From Tetraselmis striata (taxonomy: Eukaryota; Chlorophyta; Chlorodendrophyceae; Chlorodendrales; Chlorodendraceae): 64,000 bases of DNA. A program made the translations under genes and the position numbers. The DNA lies in NCBI GenBank assembly GCA_006384855.1, contig VCJN01000292.1, forward strand, positions 1-64,000, read 5' to 3'. The notes below the pieces were generated by a model. It searched no databases. It was not told where the DNA came from and saw only the letters and a list, made by a program, of their open reading frames with translations. Shown here in pieces: positions 22 through 37,655 of the stretch (within the stretch, counting starts at the first letter, position 1; the number at the start of each line of letters is the position of its first letter).

Positions 22-3000
22 GTTGGCAACCAGGAAGGCGTTGCTGACGAGGGGGTGCTCATAATCGTGGATGGCAGCAGAGACAACAGCCGCCAGAATC
101 TGCAGCCGCTCCTGGTGGCCAGACAGCGCCGAGCTGATGCCGGACAAGTGCAGAAGGGTGGCGAGGCGCTGCGTGACGTCGGTGGCATGCAGCAGGCAGT
201 GGTAGCCGCTGTCAGCGTAGCCTTGCTCAATCATCTGCACGAAAGCGTCCAGCTGGGGCAGTGCCTCCAGCGCCAGCACCGACAAGGACTGCTTCACCAC
301 CACCGCCAGCGGACATTCAACCTCTCGCAGCAGCGACTGCTCAGTGATGGCATCCAGGAATAGGTCGCGAGCGATCCTGCCCCTCAGGCTGTCCGGCACC
401 GTCACGGCGCTGTAGTCGCCGAGCAAACGCTCGGACGCGCCGAGGCTGGGGCGCATCGTGGTGGCTGCGGCTTCGTCAGGGGCGTTGGGCTCCCCGCCTC
501 GACCGTAGACCTGCTCGATGGCATCCAGCCGCACGCGCTGGGAGCTTGCCGCGCTGGTGGAGCTCTGCCGGCTGGCGTGGCCTGTGGCGGAGTGCTGCGC
601 GCGTGACGCCTCAACCAGCCTGCCGTGCGAGGGGCGAGACAAGTCAGCCAACAGCCGTCACTGTTTTCCACCCGTCATGGTGACAGAAATCCTGGTGGTA
701 GCGCTAATGCCTCAGAGCACCGCCACGCTAACCGAGCAGCTGATCGGGGTACGAAGGCAACAGAGGGACACACCACATAACATAGTAAAAATATCAGAAC
801 AATTGTGAGCATTGAAAAAATGTGAATGAAAATTAGAAAATTGCCTTTTTAAAAAGGAATAAAAGAAACGATTTGAAACTCTGTTTCTTCCATGCCAATG
901 CGTTTCTGAGAGGGGGCTGTACCCTGACATTGAGTCGCTATCCAGGCTTTGCAAAGGACTTGCCGCTGCACCGTCTGCGCTTGCCATAATGTGCCTGCGG
1001 AGGTGAGGGGGCGTCAATATGCGACATGGCGGCGATGCATACAAAATAAAGACAGCATGGGGGTGGTAAGGTCAGGATGCGGGGGGCAGGAGAGGCGGGT
1101 GGGTGGGGGGGGGGGGGGGGGGGGGGGGGAGCGCATTGCGCACCTCATCATCGCAGTGTTCAAAGTCGGGTTCCGCCTCAGCTGCCCGCGCAGGTTGGGC
1201 GCAATCAGGTTGTCCATGTTGGCGGTGATGGCGAGCTTCAGCTCGCGCGCCTCTGCCTTACGGGGTCCACGCAGGAGCAACCCCGTCGACGCCTCAAACC
1301 GCCCCAGGAAGTCCAGCACCTTCACCAGCGGCGAGTCCAGGTCGAGCCGGGGCCCTTCGGCCATGATGGCCATGAGCCGCTTCCGGAGTTGAAAGTACCG
1401 GATAATGGCCACGGTGGCGAGCAGCAGGAGCGCGGTGATGGCCAAGGTGGCGCCGAGGACGAGCGCCCGGGAGGTGGCGCTCTCGGTATGGCAGCGCCGG
1501 TCCTCAAAGTTGATGATTGGGCTGGCTTGAGGGCACTTGGCCCTCAGCACCACCAGCATGCGGTACGTGGCGCCGATGCTGGTCCGCACCCACAGTATTG
1601 CCTACGTGGATGCGTGAAGGGCACGCATGATTGCAGCAGCATTGCCGCCGGGAGTATGCTTGAGGATAGGTTGGCTATGGTGTACACGCACGCACAGTGC
1701 CGCATCACGCATGCATGCACATGTTTTCTACCTCTGCATAAGTACAAGTACATATGAATTTACAATCTGTAATGTATGCGTATAACGTGGATCATAATAT
1801 AATGTTCTATCAGATTACATAATTTGATACTTCGACTCTGATACATCTGCATGATTCTGATAGATTATAGTATAGTATGCTACACAAACACACACATGAA
1901 GGGTGGAAATGGCTTTACACTTGTACCCATACTCCGAATGCGCACTAATAGACGTAACACCTGTATTTATACCAAAACCACACGGACGTCAGCAACCACA
2001 TTCCTGGTTTGCAAAGGCGGGCGCAAGCTATCCCTGCACTGTTCACGGTTTGGAGCTTGCCTCATGCTGCATTGAGGTCGCGATGACAACTCCCACATTG
2101 ATGTGCGCTGTGCTACCAAGTCCAGGCGCTACATACGGCGCAGTAGGTTTATTCCAATATACTTTCTTATTTGTCTTTACTTTATTGTATAGGTGGGGGT
2201 TACCTCTGCTGCCGCGTCCTCTAGGTCGACATGCAAAGTTATGTTCCCCAAGGGCTCCACCTCCACTGGTGTCAGGTCTTGCTCCGCGGGGATAACCTGT
2301 GCAAGCTGGTCGGCACTCTGGCAGGAGAAGAGGAGGGAATGGGGAAGGGGGGAGGGAGTAAAAATACAAATCAACATATGTTGCCAATGGCGATTACGTG
2401 TGTGCTAGGAGCAACATTACGGCGGAAACATACCGTGTATAGTCGCTAAAGTATACAGGTAAAACATCATCATTTCAAAAGATACTACACCAAAAACAAC
2501 ATAATATATGAGACATCCCTGACGAGTTTTTCATGCACAGTTGGGGAACCTCATAGATGTACCGGGTGATAAAGGAGACACATAGGTGGCGCCGGTCCCC
2601 CGAGCGGATATTGAGTGCGTAGTCTAGTATGCAACCACTGGGAGGAGGACAGGTCACCAGAACTGACCTTGTAGAATTTGGTGGCAGCTTGTGGGAGCAA
2701 CTTCTGCGTGAGGCGCGCCTGTACGAGCTGGATGCTCTGCCCGGGGAGCGCCAGGGTCGCCATGTGCTGCAGCACTGGGCCCATGTCTACCTGCACCTGC
2801 GCGCGCGCGAAGGGCAATAGGTCCCGAAACTGCGACTCGCCCCAGACGCTGCCCTGTCTCACATCTTGCGGCCGGGCGGCGGGGATGTGGACGACGAGGT
2901 CCCGCGGCCAGGTGCTGCTGCCATTCTTGTCGCAGCTGGGCAGCGTCGTCAGGGTGACGGACTCGTCCGAGAGCGTGTTGGGGTGGATTCCCGGCGCGGG

Positions 3001-6000
3001 CTGGTAGCCGAGCACGGCCCGCCCGTCCGCCAACATCAGCATGCCGGGCGGCGGGCGTGCCAGCCCCACGAGCTGCACGGCGTCCACCCCCGCGGCCGCC
3101 TGCTCGTCGGCAGCAGCGCTCAGGAACACACGGAGGTTGGCGATGAGCTTCAGCGACTCGCAGGCCAGTGGTGGGCTGAATACGCGGCGGCCCTGCTCGT
3201 CGAATGAGTAGTACTGCTCCATAAGCGTAGTGTTGTCGGCCTGCTCGGACGAAGCCTCCCACAGGAGCTTCCAGGGGCTGCCAGGCGTCCCGCTCATCTC
3301 CGGGTCGGTATGGGCCTGCGAGTTGAGCGGAGTGCTGACGCCCTCCACCCGCATGACCGCGCCCTTGCGCCCGGTGTCGTAAATGTGCACGGCGGTGGCG
3401 TAAATGGCGGTGCGATACTGCATGATGACGTACTCCATGGCGCCGTGGTCGCAGTCGGCGCCCGTACACGCCGGCGGGACCCAGGAGGCATCCAGTGCGG
3501 ACGCCCCATCGTTGTCCGCTCGGCCGCCGTCACCGAGCGGCGCGTCTGGCGCGCCCTCGGCGTTGATCGCAGCCCGGGGGCACTCAGCGCAGGGATGGCC
3601 CGGCGCGTCCGGCGGCTGACATGCGTCCATGCCGGGCAGCAGCTCGGCGACGATGAGGCAGCAGCGTCCGCACTTTGGGTCGGGCGAGCTGGTGTGCAGT
3701 GTCGCCGCAGTAACGGCCACCTGGCGCGCGTAAAATCGCGCCACCGGCGGGGCGTCGTCGTCGACGTCGTCTTCGCTCGCAGTGAGGCCCGTCAGAGTAC
3801 CGAATCGGGGCCCTGTGGACACCCGGGCAACGAGGCGGCCGTCCTGCAACGCCGCCGCCTGCCCCTCGTCGCTGGACAGCTCGAGCACCTGAGTCAGGTC
3901 AAGCAGCAGGGCGCCCGATGTCTTGGCAGCGCCGCCGTCACCGCCGTCGCCGCCCGAAGAGCACTGGGTCACGACGGGCACGATCCCACGGACGGTGCCG
4001 GGGGAAAAATAGCCACTGTCGTCCACGAGCCGGAGACGCCCCATCTTCCAGGGCTCCTTGTTGCCCGCATTCCAGCCATACACCATCGCCTGCCCTCCCC
4101 AGCCGAGCAGCCATACATGGGCCAAGTGATGTCAGTACGAGTACAGGTATGCAGTAGTAATCCGTAGCAGGGGCAGTAGTTTATATGGTAATATTGATGA
4201 TACCCTCGCATCCTCCGCTTGAACTCGACAGTCTATTCGGATGGAAGTTCGGCAATCAGAATATAAAAGCATAGCATAGCATAGCATATCATAGCATAAC
4301 ATAGCATAGCATAGCATAGCATAGCATAGCATAGCATAGAATAAAATAGAATGGAATGGAATGGAATGGAATAGAATAGAATGGAATAGAATAGAATAGC
4401 ATAGCATAGTATGGAATGGAATGGAATGGAATGGAATGGAATGGAATGGAATAGAATAGAATAGAATGGAATAGAATGGAATAGAATAGAATAGAATGGA
4501 ATAGAATGGAATAGAATGGAATAGAATAGAATAGAATAGAATAGAATAGAATAGGATAGAAAAGGATAGAATAGAATAGAATAGAATAGAATAGAATAGA
4601 ATAGAATAGAATAGAATAGAATAGAATAGAATAGAATAGAATAGAATAGAATAGAATAGAATAGAATAGAATAGAATAGAATAGAATAGAATAGAATAGA
4701 ATAGAATAGAATAGAATAGAATAGAATAGAATAGAATAGAATAGAATAGACTAGACTAGACTAGAATAGAATAGAATAGAATAGAATAAGAAGAGTAGAG
4801 TAGAGTAGAGTAGAGTAGAGTAGAGTAGAGTAGAGTAGAGTAGAATAGAATAGAATAGAATAGAATAGAATAGAATAGAATAGAATAGAATAGAATAGAA
4901 TAGAATAGAATAGAATAGAATAGAATAGAATAGAATAGAATAGAATAGAATAGAATAGAATAGAATAGAATAGAATAGAATAGAATAGAATAGAGTAGAG
5001 TAGAGTAGAGTAGAATAGCATAGAATAGAATATAATAGAATAGAATGGAATGGAATGGAATGGAATGGAATGGAATGGAATGGAATGGAATGGAATAGAA
5101 CATATGTTGATGGTTTGGATTATAGTTTGAAGGAAAACCTGACGGATACATCTCAGTTCGTATTGCGAATCGGAAAGCACTAAAAAGGACATTGTTTGAG
5201 TTGTATTGCCCATTTATTCTGGAGAAAACGTAAATGTGCATTGTTTGAAATTAGATAGTGATACAGGAATGCGGACTGTTGAACAACGATAGAAAACGTT
5301 AATCATACCGGTAGCAGTACGCATTGTACTTACCGCGTCAGGGAATCCTTACATGGTATAACTAAACGACACGTACGGGTATTTAATACGTTTATATACT
5401 ACTGCTGGTACTAAGGATAACACACAGCGCGTTTGGTAAGGATCTCGCATGAAAGACTACGCAATCTTTACTATCGACTCTAAACAGTCTACTATTACAG
5501 TGGAGTTTCAGCAATAATAAAAAAACAGAGGAATAATACCAGAAAAGAATAGAAAACACGCTAGAAGGGTCGCAAAACACGGCTAGGCACCGCCGTGTAA
5601 ACTCATGCCACCTACGCGTTGGCAAGATGTGAAGCCAGAAACTCTCGTCCGTGGTGCAGGTACATACACGCAGCAGTGGTGTGTCTGATTGTCGACTTAC
5701 GTGTGGGTAGTACCCTGCCCAACCAGCCTGCAGCACGCCAGCAGAGCCATCGTCGCCCACGCCGCCAACCGCCGCCTCGAGGCCCTCATTTGCAAGGAAC
5801 GAAAAGCCGATGGTGGTGCCGGCCTGCCAGCGGCTGGCGCCGGAGGCCTCTCGGCCTGCCCAGTCTGGGTACATGAGGTCCTCGCGGTGTATCGCCACCT
5901 CCCAGGCGGTGATGTTGGTGGCCTCGTCTCGACGGCCCGCAGCCCGCAGCCGCTTTGGGACTTGCATGGCGTCCAGCATCGATTCTGTGTAATGGGTCTC

Positions 6001-9000
6001 GTAGTCCACACAGCAAACGCCGCCTGCCAGAGCGGAGGCAGCGCCGCAGCCGACAGCGGGGCAGTGCAAGGGTCACGGCAAAAACCTACACACTATGGCG
6101 CCACCACCTAACTCGGCACCTGGCCCATTGACTTCCTTCAGCACAAATAGGCGGGAACCCCAGGCTAGTCAAGACTGGTAAAAAGACATCTCATCTGGAG
6201 TCCCCCCCAGCTTCTATCATGACCTATTTATGTATGCATGTAGAATATACATGTACACCACCTACAGCAGCAGGTAAGCCCCCCCCCCCCCCCCCCCAAC
6301 ACACATACACACACAATACGTAGGATACAAATACTCCCCATGTGCCCCATAGGCCTATGTGCAATACACCCCCCCCCCTCCAAAGTCCTCAAGCAGCGTA
6401 TGTCTCTAAGCGCTATGCGCCCAGCCGTCTGCAAGGCAGTGGTGACTCTGAGGGAGGAGAGGGGTGGATAAGCTAGTGACATATGTGTGACGCCAAGCCA
6501 TGTGCCAGAAAGCGCACCTGTACTGGCAGTCTCCAAATCGGCGCAGTTGGTGCAAGAGCACTCTGTCTCCAGGGCCGACATGCCGAGGTTGATGAGCACG
6601 CTCTGGCTGATGCCCCACTCCTGGGAGCGCCGCGCCTGCACGAGCCCCAGCGCACTGTTGCCGTCCATGTCGACAGCCTCCGCGCCGCCAATCTCGAAAG
6701 CCAGCTGTAGGCCAGCCGTGAAGCAGCTTGTGCCGACGGGCAGGGGCTCCCAAACGTCGTCCCTCACCTCTACGGCCAGGTACACCCACTCGTCATCCCA
6801 CTTGAGGCGGAAGCTATCAATGGAAAAGTCGGCCGGCCCCCGCCACGACCGCTCCGCCAGCAACGCCTCAAATGTCACCACGCTCCCATCAAGTGTTGCA
6901 AACTCAGGCCTGGAGTACCTGCAGCGGTATTTTCCATTCCTTTTATTATTGGCATGTCCCCAAATTAACCCGCAAGAACGAAGTAATAACCAAAAAAACA
7001 GTAATCGGGTAATCCTTCCATTACATTACAGCACCGCAGCAGTAGTACTGCCAGTTTGGCTTAATGGGGTAATGTTATGACAGTCTAATTTGTATCCAGT
7101 GTCCAAGCAATGGTACAAGTGAGCCTTATGGAACCCCCCCCCCCCCCCCCCTGGCGTTGCCGCTTTTCTAGCTTATTTGCCCTTGCCTGGTCGACAGCAT
7201 GGGTCATCAGGACAACGCGCGTTGATCCCGGCCCACATGAGACTGAAATGTAAGAAATTGACATGGATACAAATAACACGGTACCCACTGTATACAAATA
7301 AGACCACCCCAACGTATCATATATGCGCGCGCCTTGATATTATCCGCTCTTAAGTAACTGCGGTTTGGAAACGACATGTGATGCCCAATCCTATCGCGGC
7401 GCCAGCCCTACAGTCGGCCTTGCGCAATCCGCGCTTTGGTGCTCCGGAAGTATCCGGAATCATCTTGCACCAATCCGTACAACGGACACAGGCATCCCCG
7501 GCACCGGAGGGTTGGTTGCAGGAGCTCTAGACCCTTCAACAGGATACATGGACATGGACGCGGCACAGTCCATCCATTTTGTTGGTACTGGCTGAGCCTC
7601 CCTCTGCCACCTACCTGCATCATGGAAGCGCTTAGATGATGTGTATTGATGATGTTGTTGGTAGTTGCTAGTATATTATGCTGTTGTTGCGCCTACTCTA
7701 CTCATCGTAGGACAGCTCTACTACACATATATGCCGTACAATACGGGGATATCTCCTAGTACCGTTACCTCATATTGCTTTCGAATATAGGTCTTCTAGC
7801 GGTGGATGATAAATTGTTACTATTGCGACTGGTATGAGTAGCTGCGCTGCTGCTGTGATGTTCTAAGCAGGTTTATGGGGTTTCCTCCTCCCATCATGCG
7901 AACTGCCCTAGCACTTCCCGCACGGGTTGGCGGTTCCATCCGGTTATATTACCGGTGCCGCCAGGTCTTTGTACGGAGTGCCCCACCGCCTGTGACGCTC
8001 TGCTTCCGGTTGGGTAGCTGCATAGGGCAGTCACCACCACTCGCCTGACCATCTTCCAGCTCGCTGCTTTCAGCAGCGCCTTCGCGCACATGTGGGCGAG
8101 AGGATCACGGCTGATCAAGTGCAAGCCACCACAACTAGTATGTATCCAGAAAGGATTTCGAAATATCGTTTAGGAGGTCAGGGGGGACGCGGGGCGCTAC
8201 CATGATGGCGATGGCTGCCGAGAGCGAGCACGTCATCGCCCATTTTAAGCTCACCCCCCCCCCCCCCCCCTGCCCCTCCTCCATCAGACCACCACGTCGG
8301 TACCGCCTGGCCACCATTAAGTGCCGAATTCCTGCACCCAACTGTTCTGCCCTCCAGAGTATCATGCAGGCCGTTGCAATTCCGTTGTACTTCGCAGCGG
8401 TTGCAACGGCAGCCGTGATGACCTGGCCGACTAATCACCGGTGCGAGCGGTGGAGGCCAGTCCGAATGTGATGGGTGCCGTCGCAGGCCAGAGCTTAGCT
8501 CAGCCGGCTCCATCCCTAAGCGCGCTCGACCAGGCTGCCATGGCGGCATCCGTAAGTGCAGTAAGAGGATAGCAGACGGGTTTAGGACAAATTCCCGGCC
8601 GGTGTCGTCCGCGATCCTCACTGTTGATGGCGGGGCGCTGGCGGGGCCTGGGTCGGTGGGGCGGAAGTGCCGGCAGGAGAAAGCCTTAACGCCTCCGGGG
8701 GTCTATTGATAGTGCGAGTCATTGAGGGCCGCGTTTCATATTTATATACTCGCACGGGTACCCGGTACGAATTTAAGGCCGCGGCTCGCGAGGAGTGATT
8801 GTTCTAAACTAGTTTATGTGGTTTCTCTACCTGTACGAGATAGCCCTGACGCGGCGCCCGTAGCGCGTGTGTGCGCGCGCACGATTGCGGGGGCCGGTCA
8901 GAGCGACCACCTGCCTTCACGGCGGACCGACCGGTCACTCTCCTTTGCTGTGGCACGCTCCATCGAGCGCACCACAGCAAAGTCGCGGCAATTTTGCCGC

Positions 9001-12000
9001 GCAGGGTGCCGGTCTTCCGCCATCGTACCATGTACGGTGAGCGACGCCTTTCGGGGCCCCCCCTGGGAGAAACCCGTTAGGGTTTGTGTGGTTAATGTAC
9101 GCGCGCCGCTTGCGACGTGCTAACTACTACCCGCGAACGAGCTGCTGATTACTCGCCCAACGCGAGGAGAGGACGAAGCTGCAGCGCTTCCCCATTCAGT
9201 GGAACAAGGTCCAAGACCTTCGACCAGTGTCGACCAACAGTAACCCCTGGCTGCCCTTTCCCGTGTGGGCATGGCTCGATCTGTACGGGCCCCTACTCGG
9301 CGTAGGTGTCGCGATGCGCTCCGATTGGGGCGTATGCCGGCGTATGCCCGTCGTCTAGTACAGATTCGAGTACAAAGTGACAGTACACTGCCAGTGGCCA
9401 AGCCAGCGCCCAGTGGCACATGGCTACTCCCACGCCGCGGCACTCCTACTGTGCCGCGCACCGTGGACCCTGACGCCGACGCGGAGAGGGCCAGCAGAGC
9501 GACAGGGCGCTCTGCTCGCCCCCCTCGCGACATCCATCGCGCCAATTCCTGTACTCCCGACTCCCCTTTTATGAGACATCGCGTCCGTCGTAATCTCGGC
9601 AACTGGCAAGCTGCTGGCGCAAATCGCAGTGTTCTCAACTGGATATCCCGAGGTGTACGCGTTCCTTTCTTGGACGGGCTTGCCCCACCTTCTTTTCATC
9701 AGGGGGTGTCAATGGGGGATGCTACTCCTGCTCAACTGGAGTTTATGGACGGTGAATTGGCTCGCTTCCTGGCCGTTGGGGCCTGGGAGCGAGGCTACTG
9801 CGCAAAATGGGTGTCCCGGCTGTTCCTGGTTCCTAAGCCTGGAACAAACAAATGGAGGCTCATCATTGACCTTCGCCCCCTGAACCGCTATTGTGAGACG
9901 CGCGATCTTTCGTTTGAGACGCTTTCGCATTTACGCAACCTGGCGCGCCCCGGGGACTACATGTTACAGATGGACCTGCAAGACGGGTTTTACGCGGTTG
10001 GAATCGCCCCTGAGGACAGGGATTTTTTCACTGTCGATTACCGCGGCACTCTGTACCGACTGGCTGGCCTTCCCATGGGCTGGTCTCTGTCCCCCTATTA
10101 CTTCTGCCAATTCACCAACGTCCTCACTAGGGCATTGCGTCGTAACCCGGCTGAAGCAGATGGCACACCTATTTTCCGGCGACGATTTGGCCTGCGCATG
10201 TTGCCCTACATGGACGATTTCCTGTTTCTAGCTCGGACTCAGGCTGAGGCCATCTGGCAACGTGACTACATCGAACGCCACCTCTCGGGCTTTGGTCTGC
10301 TGCGCAACCCCAACAAGGGCGTGTGGGAGCCCACCCAGAAGCTTGTGCACCTGGGGTTAGAAATTGACACATCGGGGTCACCTACTCTTCGTGCGCCCGC
10401 TGAGAAACTCGCCAGCATTGGTCGCGCGGCCAAACGCCTAATCCAACGAGCGAAACGCGATCGTCGGTGGTTGCCAGCTCGCGAGTTGGCCGCTCTCGCG
10501 GGCAAATGCCAGTTTCTCTACTTGGCCATTGCCCCTGCCCGTTTCTACCTTCGTGAGCTGCATGATGTGCTCAAGACGCGCGACTCTTGGTCCGGCCGCG
10601 TCAAGCTTACCCGCCAGCTCGAGCGCGATCTGCAATGGTGGGTGGGTGTGCCCACCCAACACAACGGCCGCCCCAGTAACCGCCCCGTCGAAACCGGGTA
10701 CCTACACGTCGACAGTTCGTCTTACGGCTGGGGTGCCGTTTTGAACGAGCACCATGAAGCTCGGGGTTTTTGGTACGACGATGACCGCAATGCGCACATT
10801 ACCCTGAAAGAGCTCAAAGCCGTCCGCCTGGCTATCGAGTCCTTCCTCCCCATGCTCCAAAACCGCCACATCCGCTTGCACGAGGATAACCAAGCAGTTG
10901 TCGGCGTCCTCACTAACCTCACCTCTCGCTCTCCACGCCTCATGGCTGAGCTACGCAAAACGTGGTACCTCATGGACACGCACGGCATCACCCTTTCCGT
11001 GCGCTACATCCGTTCTGCAGCGAATATCTGGGCTGACCGCCTTAGTCGCGAGGTTGATTGCGACGACTGGCAGTTCAACCCTCGTCGATTCGCCTCGCTC
11101 ACTGCTAAATGGGGCGCCTGCACCATCGACCGCTTCGCGACTTCTGAAAACGCCCTCCTGCCCCGCTACAACGCCCGTTGGCGTGACCCGCGGTGCGAGG
11201 CCGTCGACGCCCTGCGCCTCTCCGACGCTGCATGGCGTTGCGAACGTAACTGGTGTAACCCTCCGTGGAACCTCATCGGCGATCTAGTCTCCAAACTTGA
11301 GTCCAGCGGTGCCCCAGCCATCGTCATTGTTCCCTACTGGCCTGACAAAGCTTGGTACCAGCTCCTCTCGGAGATGTGCTCCGACATGCGCTCTTGGAAG
11401 CCGCGCCACGACCTCTTCATTCCTGGCCGTACCGGCGACCGCCTTCCTGTGGGCGCACCCCGCTGGCCTGTCGTCGCCTTCAACATTCCCGCCCGTGACC
11501 CCCGCCCGTGGCCTGCTGCGCCCGGCATTTTCTAGTCGGCAAACCAGACGATCCTTGTGAAATGTTCTAAACTAGTTTATGTGGTTTCTCTACCTGTACG
11601 AGATAGCCCTGACGCGGCGCCCGTAGCGCGTGTGTGCGCGCGCACGATTGCGGGGGCCGGTCAGAGCGACCACCTGCCTTCACGGCGGACCGACCGGTCA
11701 CTCTCCTTTGCTGTGGCACGCTTCATCGAGCGCACCACAGCCCGCCCAACCCTCCCTGGCTGTGGGATCGTATGCCTGCAAATTCCTGAATTTCACAACC
11801 TGTAACCAGACCTGGCATTCTTCGGCAAACCAGACGATCCTTGTGAAACGCAAATAAAGGCTTATCAACACCGAATTGCCTTTTTGAGTCACCCCGATTT
11901 GCGGCTGGAGGAATTGCGACGGGCCGGGTTGTATATTATGTAGGAACCCCCGCCTGCGGCGGGGGCGAAAACCCCCGCCTGGGGCGGGGGTTGGGGGGGG

Positions 12001-24527: not shown

Positions 24528-25874
24528 TCAGAGCTTGTAGATGCCGACCTCCCGGAGGAGCAGGCGGAAGGGGCCCACGTCGGGGCGCAGCACCATGATT
24601 CCCACCTCGCGCACCGCCTCGGTGTTGAGCTCGGGGCGGTGCACGCGCCGCCCCATCTGCTCCGGCCGGTCGAACGCGGAAAAGGGGATGAGCACGCGGC
24701 GGCGCTCGCTGCCCGCGGGCGCGCGGAACGGCACCTTGAAGTTGACCTGCGTCGCGAGCGCCTCCGCATCCTTGGCCATAAACTGGAACACCTTGGCCGC
24801 GTCGGCCTCCTCGGGGCAGCAGCAGTCGACGTAGAAGCCGTCGTAGTCGGACATGCGGGCAAAGGACTGCGGGAGGCGCAGCTGGCAGCTCGCAAAGCCG
24901 CCGTTGTTCTCCGTGCGCACGGTGCCCACAAACGCACCCGAGTTCTCCTCCTCGGAGAACACCACCTCGCTCTCGCTCATGCCGCCCATCACGTCGTCGT
25001 TCATGGGCCAGAAGACCGTGGCGGTGGTGTGGGTCTCGACCTTGGCGAGCGCGAGCACCTCCGCCAGCGCCGGCGCCTCCGCTGGCGCGCTGTGCACCGG
25101 CGCCTCGGTGTCGTACATGTCCATGATGGCGTCGAAGCCGTGGCGCAGCTGCCACGCGTTCATGTCTGGCCGGTCCGCCTCCAGGGTGTCCATCTGCGCA
25201 GTCAGCAGCTCGGTCACGCGCTCCAGCTGCTGGCATTCCGGGTCCTCCAGCAGCGCGGCGTACGTCTCCAGGTACACCTGCGCCCAGCCAGCAGCGCCAC
25301 AGTGAGAGGCGGCACCACCGGCCGTCACGCCAGCCGTATCCACACACTCCATCCCGCACGACCGTCGCCCACACATCGGCCACATCAGCCTCTGGAACTG
25401 AATTGGCGCCACTCCTCCCCGGCCAGCCAACAGCGACGATGGGCCAAGTGCACGACTGGCCCCAGAATGACGTGCCGTGGAAATGATGCCGAGCACCTGC
25501 CAAAAACTGCAGGAGCCTCGCTCGATATGCCTCTCATAGCATATGCTGTGCTCTAACTATGCCCCCCCTACGATCCCCCTCCCCCCCCCCCCCCCCCTTT
25601 CCCCCGGGGAGGCTCAATACACCAGTAGGTAAGGCTCGGGCGAAGCGTGCGCACGCGGACGCGGACGCGCGGGGGGGATGGGGGTGGGGGAGGAGGGAGG
25701 GGCAACCTTCTCGCAGCCCGCGACGTTGCCGTCGTTATACAGCGGCACGCCCTTCTGAATAGCACTGGCCACGCGCTTCTTCACCGCCACCATCGCCGCA
25801 GCGGACGGTGGCGGCTGGGCGGGCGCCGCCGCCATCGCGCGCACTGGCTGCCGCAGCAGCAGGCTGCGCATCAT
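24528..25874 (-). CDS. CIA30-domain protein (complex I intermediate-associated / NDUFAF1-like)
   Basis: Two exons on the minus strand, 25874-25707 and 25277-24528, joined by a GT-AG intron in phase 0 to give 305 residues. The N-terminus (MMRSLLLRQPVRA) is basic and Ser/Ala-rich, compatible with an organelle-targeting peptide. Residues about 30-110 are helical, with the GVPLYNDGNVAGCEKVY motif often found ahead of plant and algal CIA30 domains. The CIA30 domain covers about 143-303: FWPMNDDVMGGMSES, NGGFASCQLRLP, DYDGFYVDC, VLIPFSAFDRPEQMGR, and a C-terminal RLLLREVGIYKL strand. In animals and fungi the family assists respiratory complex I assembly; in the green lineage the role is often unproven. 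A second ATG follows the first directly. Confidence 0.9.
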
Positions 25875-27156: not shown

Positions 27157-27317
27157 GCACTGATTGAGTACGGTTTGTAATTAATTTGCGCCGCTAGTTC
27201 TATCCATGCTATCCATGCTAGTTCTATCAATCCCTGCGGGTTTTGTTTACTACCAGTACTTGGTAATTCACACCAGCAGTTCTAGGGAACTGCCTTTTTT
27301 GTAATTCACGCCAGTTC

Positions 27318-30300
27318 TTGGGGTTTCCTTTTTCGCACGGCGGCCGCTGCGCGCGCTCGCTTGCGTACGCGATACAGTGTACAACTGTGGCACGCATATG
27401 CGATGCTCGCAGCTAATCCTAATACATAGTCCTTAAGATACATCGTACTAAAAAGCACGGTAGTCCGCGTACCGGTGTGCTTCAGCACCCGAAATCTGCC
27501 TGGGAAGAAACTGCCGTACAAACGAGCACGGTCAACTTCAGCACCACGTTGATTTCGATCGATCTAGTTCATCCAGTCGATCCCAATCGAGGTAGAATTC
27601 ATATTAAAACTAGCGGGCTATTTATTGTCCCCATCTTCCATCTTACCATGTGGCGGCCTGGCGGGCAGCGTCGAGCGATGCTTGCGGGTTCGTCCCGTGC
27701 ATGATGCTTTGGCTTTCCCGCACGCCCGAACCTCGTGTGAAGACTCGCCGTCCTCCAACCGACGCCGGTACCGTCTTCTTGGGTGCGACTAGCCCACTTC
27801 TGCCGGTGTGCTGACAGCTGACGACTTAGAATCGCACCTAGAAAGGCGAGCGCTAAAACACCGCGCCCCTCTTCTCAACAAGCCCCCCCTTCCAACGGCG
27901 CATGCTGCGCGGGTAGGTGGTACTGGTGGCCCATCAGCTTGGCCTCACAATGGCACGCTCAATGTTGGCGCCGACTGCTCGGCATAGCTGCCCGGTTCAA
28001 ACAACTACCTCGGGACTAGCAACGATTCCGTGTCCGGCCGGTGACTGACCCGAGTACCGTGACCGAACAAGCTGCTGCTCCTTCCGGTCAGTGACTCTTA
28101 CTGCGGCGCGTGACGAGCACACAGCCTAGGGCGACCGATGTCACTCCCGAGCGAGGACGAACCCTTTCGAGACACGCGCGTGTACATGTGGACTCCAGCT
28201 CGCGTGCCCATGACTCGTGCACCCCTAAGTCGGATTACATGCGCCACCGGGTGCGACGCAATTGGCATGCATGGGCGGACATGGGCGCTGGCTGTCGGGT
28301 CGTCGATATGATCTACCTCGAACTACCGGCGTGCGCATCCCGTTCAAGAGCGGGCCACCCGCCCCTTTCAACCAAGGGGTCTCGATGGAGGAGGCGACTC
28401 CCGACCAGCTGCGCGTCATGGACGACGAGCTGACTCGCTTTCAGGCTAGCAGAGCGTGGGAGGAAGGCCATTACAACTCGCTGGGTGGGTTTCTCGGCTG
28501 TTCCTCGTACCTAAGCCGGGCGTCAATAAATTGCGGCTCATCATCGATCTACGACCCCTCAACTGCTGGAACTGCGACGAGGAGCGAAACCCGAGTTTCG
28601 ACACTCTTACACGGCTACGTCACCTGGCTCAACAAGGCGACTACATGCCCTCCATGGACCTACAGGACGGCTTTCACGCCGTCGGTATCGCTCCCAAAGA
28701 CAAAGACTATTTCACCGTCAACTAAAGCGGCAAGCTCTACTGGATGGCGGGGCTCCTCATGGGGTGGCAGGAGCTTGAGCCCCTACTACTTCTGCATGCG
28801 TTCTCACTGCGGCGTGCAACCGCCATCTGCGACGCCCCGACTTCGCAGTGACCTCCCAAGGAGTGCGTCGCGCCAAGCTGAGCATGGGGCGACGTCAAGC
28901 GCTGCGCAGCCACTTCCGTGGCTGCCGCATGCTCCCCTACATGGACGACTTCTTGTTCTTTGCGTCTAGCCGAGCGCAACCCACAATGTGCGCGACCGCC
29001 TCACCTCCCAACTAGGACGGCTGGGTCTCAGCCGACATCCCGCCGACAAGGGCCAATGGGAGCCGGTACAACGGCTGCCTTGTATGGCGATCGACTCACG
29101 AAGCGGTACGATTCGAGGCCCCCTCGGAAACTCGATTCAATCGCTGCTACAGCCCTCGGCCTCATCCGCCGGGCTAAGCGAGACATGCAATGGTTGCATG
29201 TCGAGAGCTTGCGTCCCTGGCAGGACGTGCTCCGGGACGTACGCGCTCAATTCCTCTTTCTCACCATCAAGCCCGCGCGGTTCTACATGCGCGAGCTGCA
29301 CGACATGCTCCGCACGAAGGTCACGTGGAGCTGGCGCGTCAAGATGACCCACCTGCTCCGACGCGACCCCGGGTGGTGGGTGGCGGTCCCCAAACACAAC
29401 AACGGTCGCTCCATCTACAAGCCCGTGGAGACGGCCTAGATGCATGTCGACAGCTCCGGCTACGACGGGGGGGGGGGGGGGGGAGGGGGCGTCATCTTCA
29501 AGAGACCACCAAGGCGCGCGGGTTCCGGTACGACTGCGACCGCGAGGTGCACATCACCTACAATACGGAGCCCATACTGCCCGGTATGCCGTGCATACAT
29601 TCCTCTCGGAGCAGCGAGGTCGACAGGTGATGCTCCACGAGGACAAGCAGCATGGGGGGTGGTCGACTCCTCGCCAACCTCACCTCCCGATCCCCTCTGC
29701 TCATGACGGAGCCGCGAAAACTGTGGTTCATCCTTGACTCCAACGAGATCTCCATCCGTGCGCGCTACATCAACACCACGGCCAAGCAACATCTGGGCCG
29801 ACCGCTTCAGCCGCAAAATTGACTACGACGACATGGCGTTCAGCCTACGCCACTTCAACCACCTCAACAACATCTAGGGCGCCACACCATCGACCGCTTC
29901 GCTACCATGGAGAACGCGAGGCTCCCGCGCTACAATTTCCGTCCGCGTGACCCTTGCCGCGAGGCCACCGACAGCATGCGCCTCTCCGATGGCGCTGTGA
30001 GCATACCGGGTGCAACCCCCTTTGGGCCTCATTGCCAACCTCGCCATCATTCTCCACACCTCTTGCGCGGCGGCCACCGTCATCATGCCCTATTGGCCCC
30101 ACCCCGGTTGGCACCAGCGCCCTTCGGAAATGGCATCCGAGGCAGGCTATCTTCCCGTCCTCCCCGGACCTCTTCGCGCCGGGCCACATCGGCGTGCTCA
30201 CTGGCGTCGGTCCTCCAAAGTGGCCAATCGCCTTCCGGCTCCCCCTTCGGGCCCGGTGCCCGGCCCCGGGTTTTTGACCGCCCCTCGTCTGCCCCTCGAG

Positions 30301-30825
30301 CCGGCCGGCGCCATCCTGCGTGCCCCAAGGCAAACCACACAGCTCCCTCCCCTTTGTAATATTTTGTAACGGTATTTGGGGTTTCCTTTTCCGCATGGCG
30401 ACCGCTGCGCGCGTTCGCTAGCGTACGCGTTACAAATGTGGCACGCATGCGATGCTCGCAGCTATACATCGCACTACAAAGCACGGTAGTCCGCGTACCG
30501 GTATGCTTTAGCACCCGAATTATGCATGGGAAGAAACTGCCGTACAAACGAGCACGGTCAACTCCAGCACCACGTTGCGACTCGATCCCAATCGAGGTAG
30601 AATTCGTATAAAATATAGCGGCCTATCTGCTGTCCCCATCTTCCATCTTCGCGCCCCGCCTACCATGTGGCGGGCCGCGTCCCTGGCTCCCTCCCTCACT
30701 CACTTCGTGCTTTGTGTTCTTACGGGCTGCCGACGGGCTCCTGCCTTAGAGAACACCGTAACCCAAGCCAAAGCGCAGTTTCGGCAAGCCACACAGCCCC
30801 CTCCCCTTAGAAATTTTAAAAACTG
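27318..30825 (+). mobile_element. Decayed DIRS-like retroelement, split direct repeats retained
   Basis: The layout matches the intact element at 8800-11848: A1' (27318-27663), broken RT/RNase H body, B1' (30329-30375), A2' (30376-30675), gap, B2' (30781-30825). A1' and A2' are clearly homologous but have several indels. B1' and B2' share a CGGCAARCCACACAGC core, which resembles the start of the B repeat in the intact element (CGGCAAACCAGAC). The A repeats of the two elements are not obviously alike, so they belong to different subfamilies. Again no recombinase frame lies between the repeats. Confidence 0.75.
28219..30330 (+). pseudogene. DIRS-like RT/RNase H pseudogene
   Basis: Homologous to 9271-11535 along its length but broken into at least four frames. 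Recognisable pieces in order are MRHRVRRNWHAW, PFNQGVSMEEATPDQL, WVSRLFLVPKPG, LRLIIDLRPLN, MDLQDGFHAVGIAP (stop after YFTVN), LPYMDDFLFFA, RAKRDMQWL, KPARFYMRELHDML and MHVDSSGYD. The last motif, the first RNase H aspartate region, runs into a G homopolymer at 29467-29480 that replaces the next codons. It cannot encode a working enzyme. Confidence 0.85.
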
Positions 30826-37094: not shown

Positions 37095-37655
37095 ATACTA
37101 GTGACTGGATGCTGAACCAGAGATATTTAATTTGATATGTTAGATGCGAGATGGGGTCCCCACACTGCCGATCTTTTCGCTAGCAGTAGAAACTTCCACC
37201 GCGTTCGTTTCTTTTCTCAGTTCTCCTGCCATTGTACTTCTTGGGTCAAATCCCTATGTCATGATTGGTCTCAGTTCAACTGCTGGATTAATCCTCCCTT
37301 TCGGATGATTGGGGATGTATTGAGGCACATGAGGTCATGTCGTGCTACCGGCACTTGGATTATCCCGCCTTACTGGGACACTCATACTTGGTGGCATATG
37401 TTGGCTCCCTATGGCGTGCACGTTTTTGATTTTGTGATCCAATGGTTTTGGTTACCCATGAATGATATGCGCTCTTCATTACGGGGCAAAACATTGGTAA
37501 GGAGAATCCGCATATACCGCCTTCCTTGGATATTTTGGCCATCGTGCTCGACTTCTCACGCCAGAGCCCTTCCTCCCTCCCGTTCCGAGAGCGGTGTATG
37601 TGTCCACGGTGGTTGCCGCGAATGCTGCCGGTTCCCGGGTTATTGGCCCCAGTGA
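37095..37655 (+). pseudogene. DIRS-type RT/RNase H C-terminal tail, third lineage
   Basis: DWMLNQRY, then after one frameshift LDARWGPHTADLFASS, FNCWINPPFRMIGDVLRHM and GTWIIPPYWD. These are the motifs that follow RNase H in DIRS/Ngaro polyproteins and are matched by WGACTIDRFA...NWCNPPWNLI in the intact element here. The sequence is more distant and less GC-rich, so it comes from another DIRS lineage. RT and RNase H cores are missing. Confidence 0.65.

Follow-up and report, generated by a model that had tools for sequence, protein, structure and literature searches.

Among the retrotransposons that integrate by means of a tyrosine recombinase (YR), PAT elements are described as carrying gag, reverse transcriptase (RT), RNase H, methyltransferase (MT) and YR functions in one element with split direct repeats, the non-animal representatives being without a gag zinc finger (PMC4157794). 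In the model proposed for the wider DIRS type, a circular form is joined to the genome by recombination at a short junction, with no target duplication (PMC3266345). PAT-like elements have been reported from relatives of Chlamydomonas (PMC8226300), and both PAT-like and Ngaro families from Ectocarpus (PMC12477816); these statements, and those on published systems below, reflect the parts of the cited papers on which we draw. Here we analyse 64,000 nucleotides of the green alga Tetraselmis striata (assembly GCA_006384855.1, contig VCJN01000292.1, positions 1 to 64,000 of the forward strand; hereafter the window), which contain a 3049-bp unit, termed R, at positions 8800-11848. R encodes an RT and has split direct repeats, and it shares its recombination junction with a partner element of about 3.2 kb, termed I. 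We propose that R and I probably constitute a two-component PAT-like (DIRS) tyrosine-recombinase retrotransposon in which R gives RT and I gives gag and YR.

A sequence-only reading of this stretch had described repeats in the order A1...B1-A2...B2 around a single open reading frame (ORF) for RT and RNase H, with no recombinase; comparison of the repeats bears out the first point, and the ORF list, the Pfam matches and a tblastn search with the YR of I agree with the second. All features of R lie on the plus strand. A1 (8800-8978, 179 nt) opens with the crossover T (T-GTTCTAAAC) and differs from A2 (11563-11741, 179 nt) by one mismatch, while B1 (11536-11562) and B2 (11822-11848), each of 27 nt, are identical; B2 forms the right end, with the target pyrimidine next to it, and B1 together with A2 makes up an internal copy of the circle junction that is common to I. 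The sole long ORF (9265-11535, 756 residues, first ATG at 9271) contains an RT domain (RVT_1, 9829-10356, residues 189-364, E = 8e-17), an RNase H domain (RT_RNaseH, 10699-10941, residues 479-559, E = 9e-6) and, as an addition to the earlier description, a putative Dam-like MT (11056-11298, residues 598-678) whose match falls below the Pfam cut-off (E = 0.0068). A YMDD box, acidic RNase H motifs and, in the MT region, an NPPW motif were all located in this ORF, and we take them to mark the RT, the RNase H and the putative MT, respectively. An AlphaFold prediction for the MT region had a predicted local distance difference test (pLDDT) score of 39 and was discarded as uninformative.

The ORF list and Pfam show no YR in R, and neither the YR nor the first ORF of I (ORF1) matches anything in the whole window by tblastn. 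As to gag, ORF1 of I is unmatched in the window and Pfam is blank on the first 189 residues of the R ORF, a search that an unrelated gag would escape. We also considered a recombinase on the opposite strand, in the manner of Kangaroo, and rejected it, the YR of I being unmatched in the window and no such ORF having been noticed. A search of the window against Rfam gave no match. Of the features that define the PAT group, R therefore has the split direct repeats, an RT and RNase H in a single pol ORF and, at the two places described below, insertion without target duplication; absent are a YR gene of its own and, as searched, a gag of its own.

R is not peculiar to this contig. The genome (224 Mb in 2903 contigs) has 63 matches to the light-harvesting family, as befits a photosynthetic eukaryote. 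When it was searched with R, 34 of the 44 matches listed covered the whole 3049-bp unit at 97-100% identity, which rules out a private deletion or an assembly oddity. The sequence-only reading had recognised that a private deletion would be indicated if most copies were longer and encoded a recombinase between the RT stop and B1, but the listed copies are uniformly about 3.05 kb. A 32-nt R junction, allowing up to three mismatches, occurs at 232 places genome-wide as against 0 with the reversed control. The RT ORF has at least 59 matches at 92-100% identity, and 36 of the 59 listed are free of stops; a 100-residue RT core has at least 150 matches (82-100%), those listed all being copies of R.

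Purifying selection acts on the RT of R. In a comparison of 30 loci with the window copy as reference (seven of them whole, the others mostly comprising the 3' 1.8 kb), we counted 59 distinct nonsynonymous and 80 distinct synonymous changes in the ORF, as against 94.5 and 42.7 expected under the observed base-change spectrum with one copy taken as reference (ratio 0.33, p = 1e-10); counting only changes common to two or more loci lowers the ratio to 0.19. The A repeats of R are homogenised: A1 equals A2 exactly in seven of eight full copies, and in three copies a shared pair of variants is present in A1 as well as in A2. This is expected if the two ends are rebuilt from a single template in every cycle. 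Among viral contigs we found no relatives of the RT of R or of the YR of I.

The partner element emerged from a Phage_integrase profile search of the genome, which gave at least 150 matches. The four strongest PF00589 matches (L009-L012, on contigs C1804, C2009 and C396) were not counted among the element YRs, as they look bacterial by their ORFs and are probably contaminants. Thirty YR loci, these four among them, were read with 1.5 kb on each side, and 25 of the remaining 26 belong to one YR family, with the end of ORF1 upstream of the YR in 22 of the 26 and an RT in none of them. In the copy at L071 (reverse-complement coordinates) the parts follow one another as A1 (2729-2915), ORF1 (2936-3901), YR (3905-5644), B1 (5624-5649), A2 (5650-5835) and B2 (5928-5953). 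Eight more junctions, taken in listing order (L072-L079), belong to the same element, five of them to whole copies and three to partial or decayed ones, and neither RT nor RNase H was found at these eight loci or in a separate set of three copies.

The YR of I matches Phage_int_SAM_1 (E = 2.8e-8) and, below the cut-off, PF00589 (E = 1.7e-4), and its best solved relative is Cre (0.003). The motifs R, HSLRKG, GGW and Y, which are presumably catalytic, were all located. ORF1 encodes 322 residues with an RG-rich tail, has no family match and shows no CCHC motif by eye; we regard its product as a putative gag-like protein. The I junction pattern, again with up to three mismatches, occurs at 2109 places (control, 0), and as it also admits the R junction, which differs by two mismatches, this figure includes up to 232 R places and leaves about 1,900 of the I type. 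By junction count I is thus about eight times commoner than R. Changes common to at least two loci are constrained in both coding regions of I (ratio 0.15 in ORF1, 0.32 in YR), whereas singletons are near-neutral (0.92 and 0.88), a pattern that points to active lineages leaving decaying copies. We note that head-to-tail arrays of I, repeating about every 2917 nt, are present on contigs C348, C2200, C2249 and C1388, and look as if circles had inserted into existing copies.

In I, a single UGA interrupts the reading frame that ORF1 and the YR have in common. Of 33 aligned rows, 31 retain this TGA and 30 have CGG after it (28 and 27, respectively, of 30 distinct places). A stem-loop starts 6-8 nt downstream, with predicted energies of -57 to -67 kcal/mol and z-scores of -3.1 to -5.7 in all three sequences folded; the UGA-CGG and stem-loop are found at L071:3988-4099 (minus strand) and at 29 other loci. 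The stem-loop is kept in the consensus of 30 loci, with a two-sided change in 1 of 33 pairs, so that covariation lends it weak support. Type II stop-codon readthrough is defined by UGA followed by CGG or CUA, often with a stem-loop some 6-12 nt away (PMC11166343), and I has the same UGA, the same CGG and a downstream stem-loop. The type II cases in the part of that source we draw on come from plant RNA viruses, whereas I is a retrotransposon in which the stop separates a gag-like ORF from a YR. On the strength of this signature we propose that readthrough of the UGA may produce a gag-YR fusion in I which, if true, would be a further means by which a retrotransposon expresses its recombinase.

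R and I follow one insertion rule. B2 is followed by C or T in all 30 distinct copies of R, and the crossover T directly precedes GTTC at the left end in all eight R copies with a left flank; of 24 right flanks of I, 23 start with a pyrimidine directly after B2, L072 being the exception. Empty sites were sought by searching the genome with the joined flanks (90 + 90 bp) of eight R and five I copies, and were resolved for two of the eight R copies and none of the five I copies, most of the matches listed belonging to one repeat. The joined flanks of L003 align over 183 of 183 bp with a single other place (C627), and those of L005 match a high-copy repeat with 41 matches listed, of which 40 have equal query and target length. 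These matches indicate that neither insertion of R was accompanied by target duplication or deletion. At L003 the left T must have been supplied by the element, as it is absent from the empty site. This insertion pattern fits the DIRS-type model of circle recombination.

The DNA of R and I shares a 48-bp B-A junction (85% identity, E = 2.5e-9), together with the A1 copy of it. The other matches listed between the two are one of 25 bp (R 1431-1455 with I 846-870, E = 0.002), which we set aside as probable chance, and several of 13 bp (E = 0.35). Two short arms flank the crossover of R symmetrically, AAACC towards B and GGTTT towards A. The same arms recur in R2, a decayed sibling considered below, and by hand count they are present in I to within about one base. 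Most simply, a single recombinase would act on both R and I. That R brings its own RT but obtains a recombinase in trans was one of two options in the sequence-only reading, and it is strengthened by the finding of an abundant element with a gag-like ORF, a YR and a matching crossover junction, as well as by the common insertion rule and the two clean empty sites of R. We note that the donor, I, has no RT in any copy examined, and the dependence may therefore be mutual.

A cycle consistent with these features can be outlined. R would provide RT, RNase H and the putative MT, and I would provide the gag-like protein and the YR, which is apparently expressed as a gag-YR fusion by readthrough of the UGA. 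The internal B-A junction in each transcript could then act as the template for rebuilding lost ends during reverse transcription, and the product would circularise, joining B2 to A1; the recombinase of I would insert this circle before a pyrimidine without target duplication. Acting in trans, I would lend R its YR, and probably gag too, and would most likely borrow RT from R in return. A stricter version, which we advance tentatively, is that the system is obligately bipartite: no complete element would exist, and the lineage would survive as two complementary, separately replicating elements with a common recombination site, in the manner of a segmented genome.

The most serious alternative, which we consider unlikely, is that a complete PAT-like element with gag, RT and YR, present in low copy or among other families, drives both R and I, each of them being a non-autonomous derivative of it. 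Such an arrangement would accord with known YR retrotransposons, which hold all their genes together (PMC4157794, PMC3266345), and our counts of RT and YR cover the matches listed. The sequence-only reading had suggested looking for a longer relative with a recombinase and the same termini; a YR element with a matching junction does exist, but RT and YR occur together at none of the R or I loci read, and none of the 59 RT matches listed lies within 6 kb of any of the 150 YR matches listed. All three coding regions (RT, ORF1 and YR) show purifying selection, which would be unexpected for passive deletion derivatives. Moreover, beyond the junction the sequences of R and I are different throughout, so that neither arose by recent deletion from a parent that they shared.

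A further point against a complete parent is R2, a decayed RT-only sibling of R within the window (about 27293-30817, plus strand) with the same order of parts. Repeat comparison places its A1 at approximately 27293-27644, a decayed RT/RNase H/MT body follows at 27987-30250 (28-69% amino acid identity to R in pieces), and then come B1 (30329-30363), A2 (up to 30649) and B2 (30783-30817, 86% identical to its B1). At the DNA level R2 is about 67% identical to R over two stretches, and neither ORF1 nor YR of I has a match beside it. The presence of this second RT-only element suggests that such elements are not the result of one recent accident.

Several observations weigh against a two-component system and in some cases favour a complete parent. 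A genome search with the Dam profile, with which R itself scores low, gave at least 20 matches with a 696-residue ORF above the cut-off and at least 10 with ORFs of 1529-1534 residues below it (for example at C2465:291883 and C31:46999), among other matches. These families may be a complete element, the source from which I truly obtains RT, a further DIRS-type family or something unrelated. When 55 Dam-bearing places were compared with the 150 YR matches listed, none lay closer than 5 kb, with one on C723 at 5.4 kb; a 696-residue ORF at C1455:140035 lies, by eye, 3.8 kb from an ORF1 of I on the same strand. The 100-residue RT query lists nothing but R, and distant RT families would not show in it. 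In addition, A1 and A2 of I are only weakly more alike within copies than between them. It is on account of these Dam-bearing families, of whose copies the lists cover a part, that we hold the two-component system to be no more than probable, and its obligate form to be somewhat less than an even prospect.

Two other regions of the window may be mentioned here. A 174-residue open frame at 37131-37655 has a Dam match below the cut-off (E = 0.001) and about 30% identity to the tail of R, with no RT match next to it, and is possibly a piece of another DIRS-like family. On the minus strand, positions 24528-25496 encode complex I intermediate-associated protein 30 (CIA30, E = 6e-24), an ordinary host gene.

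It is improbable, in our view, that I behaves like a Crypton, moving as circular DNA independently of RT, and that R is the only retrotransposon of the two and uses the I recombinase. The absence of RT from every I copy examined would be explained in this way, as might the excess of I over R by junction count and its tandem arrays, but a DNA-only route would have no need of the internal B1-A2 junction, which is kept in the I copies read, nor would one anticipate a constrained gag-like ORF. Cryptons are not known to have split direct repeats, and I, which has A1...B1-A2...B2 and a gag-like ORF, falls outside the usual definition of a Crypton. Taken alone, I resembles the Crypton DNA transposons in having a YR without an RT (PMC3212892). 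That R integrates without any YR, for instance by target-primed reverse transcription, would suit its lack of a YR gene but is very hard to reconcile with its uniform ends (left T in 8 of 8, right pyrimidine in 30 of 30), with exact empty sites lacking a duplication at two places and with a junction in common with a YR element.

If the two-component system that we favour is correct, its interest lies in the fact that known YR retrotransposons join RT and YR (PMC4157794, PMC3266345), so that a lineage keeping the two enzymes on separate mobile elements would amount to a naturally segmented retrotransposon. It would become testable whether a DIRS-type RT and YR act in trans, and what stabilises selfish elements that depend on each other. 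The site of the recombinase within the split direct repeat could also be pinned down, since R and I have little in common apart from the junction. In the literature searched, mostly by titles and the openings of abstracts, no split RT/YR retrotransposon system was recognisable. Dependence in trans is described for other retroelements, such as TRE5-A.2 of Dictyostelium, which is without ORF2 (PMC5633606). Closer to the present case is SIRE, the truncated YR retrotransposon of VIPER, which has split-repeat ends, is missing genes and presumably depends on a partner (PMC6681497), as R and I may do; R differs from SIRE in having an intact RT under selection and a partner that is itself without RT where examined. 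Ngaro elements have the A1-ORFs-B1A2B2 layout and the gag-like, RT/RNase H and YR functions seen here, but, as described in the portion of PMC8547959 drawn on, have all their genes together on a single element about 6 kb long and possess no MT, whereas here the genes are split. The PAT-like DIRS elements of algae, TOC and Kangaroo, resemble R and I in their split direct repeats, their RT-RNase H with a putative MT and their duplication-free insertion, and the algal PAT-like forms are described as being without a gag zinc finger, as is ORF1 of I (PMC4157794). TOC and Kangaroo nevertheless carry gag, RT/RNase H/MT and YR on one element, whereas in T. striata the RT/RNase H/MT functions and the gag-like and YR functions are found on separate elements.

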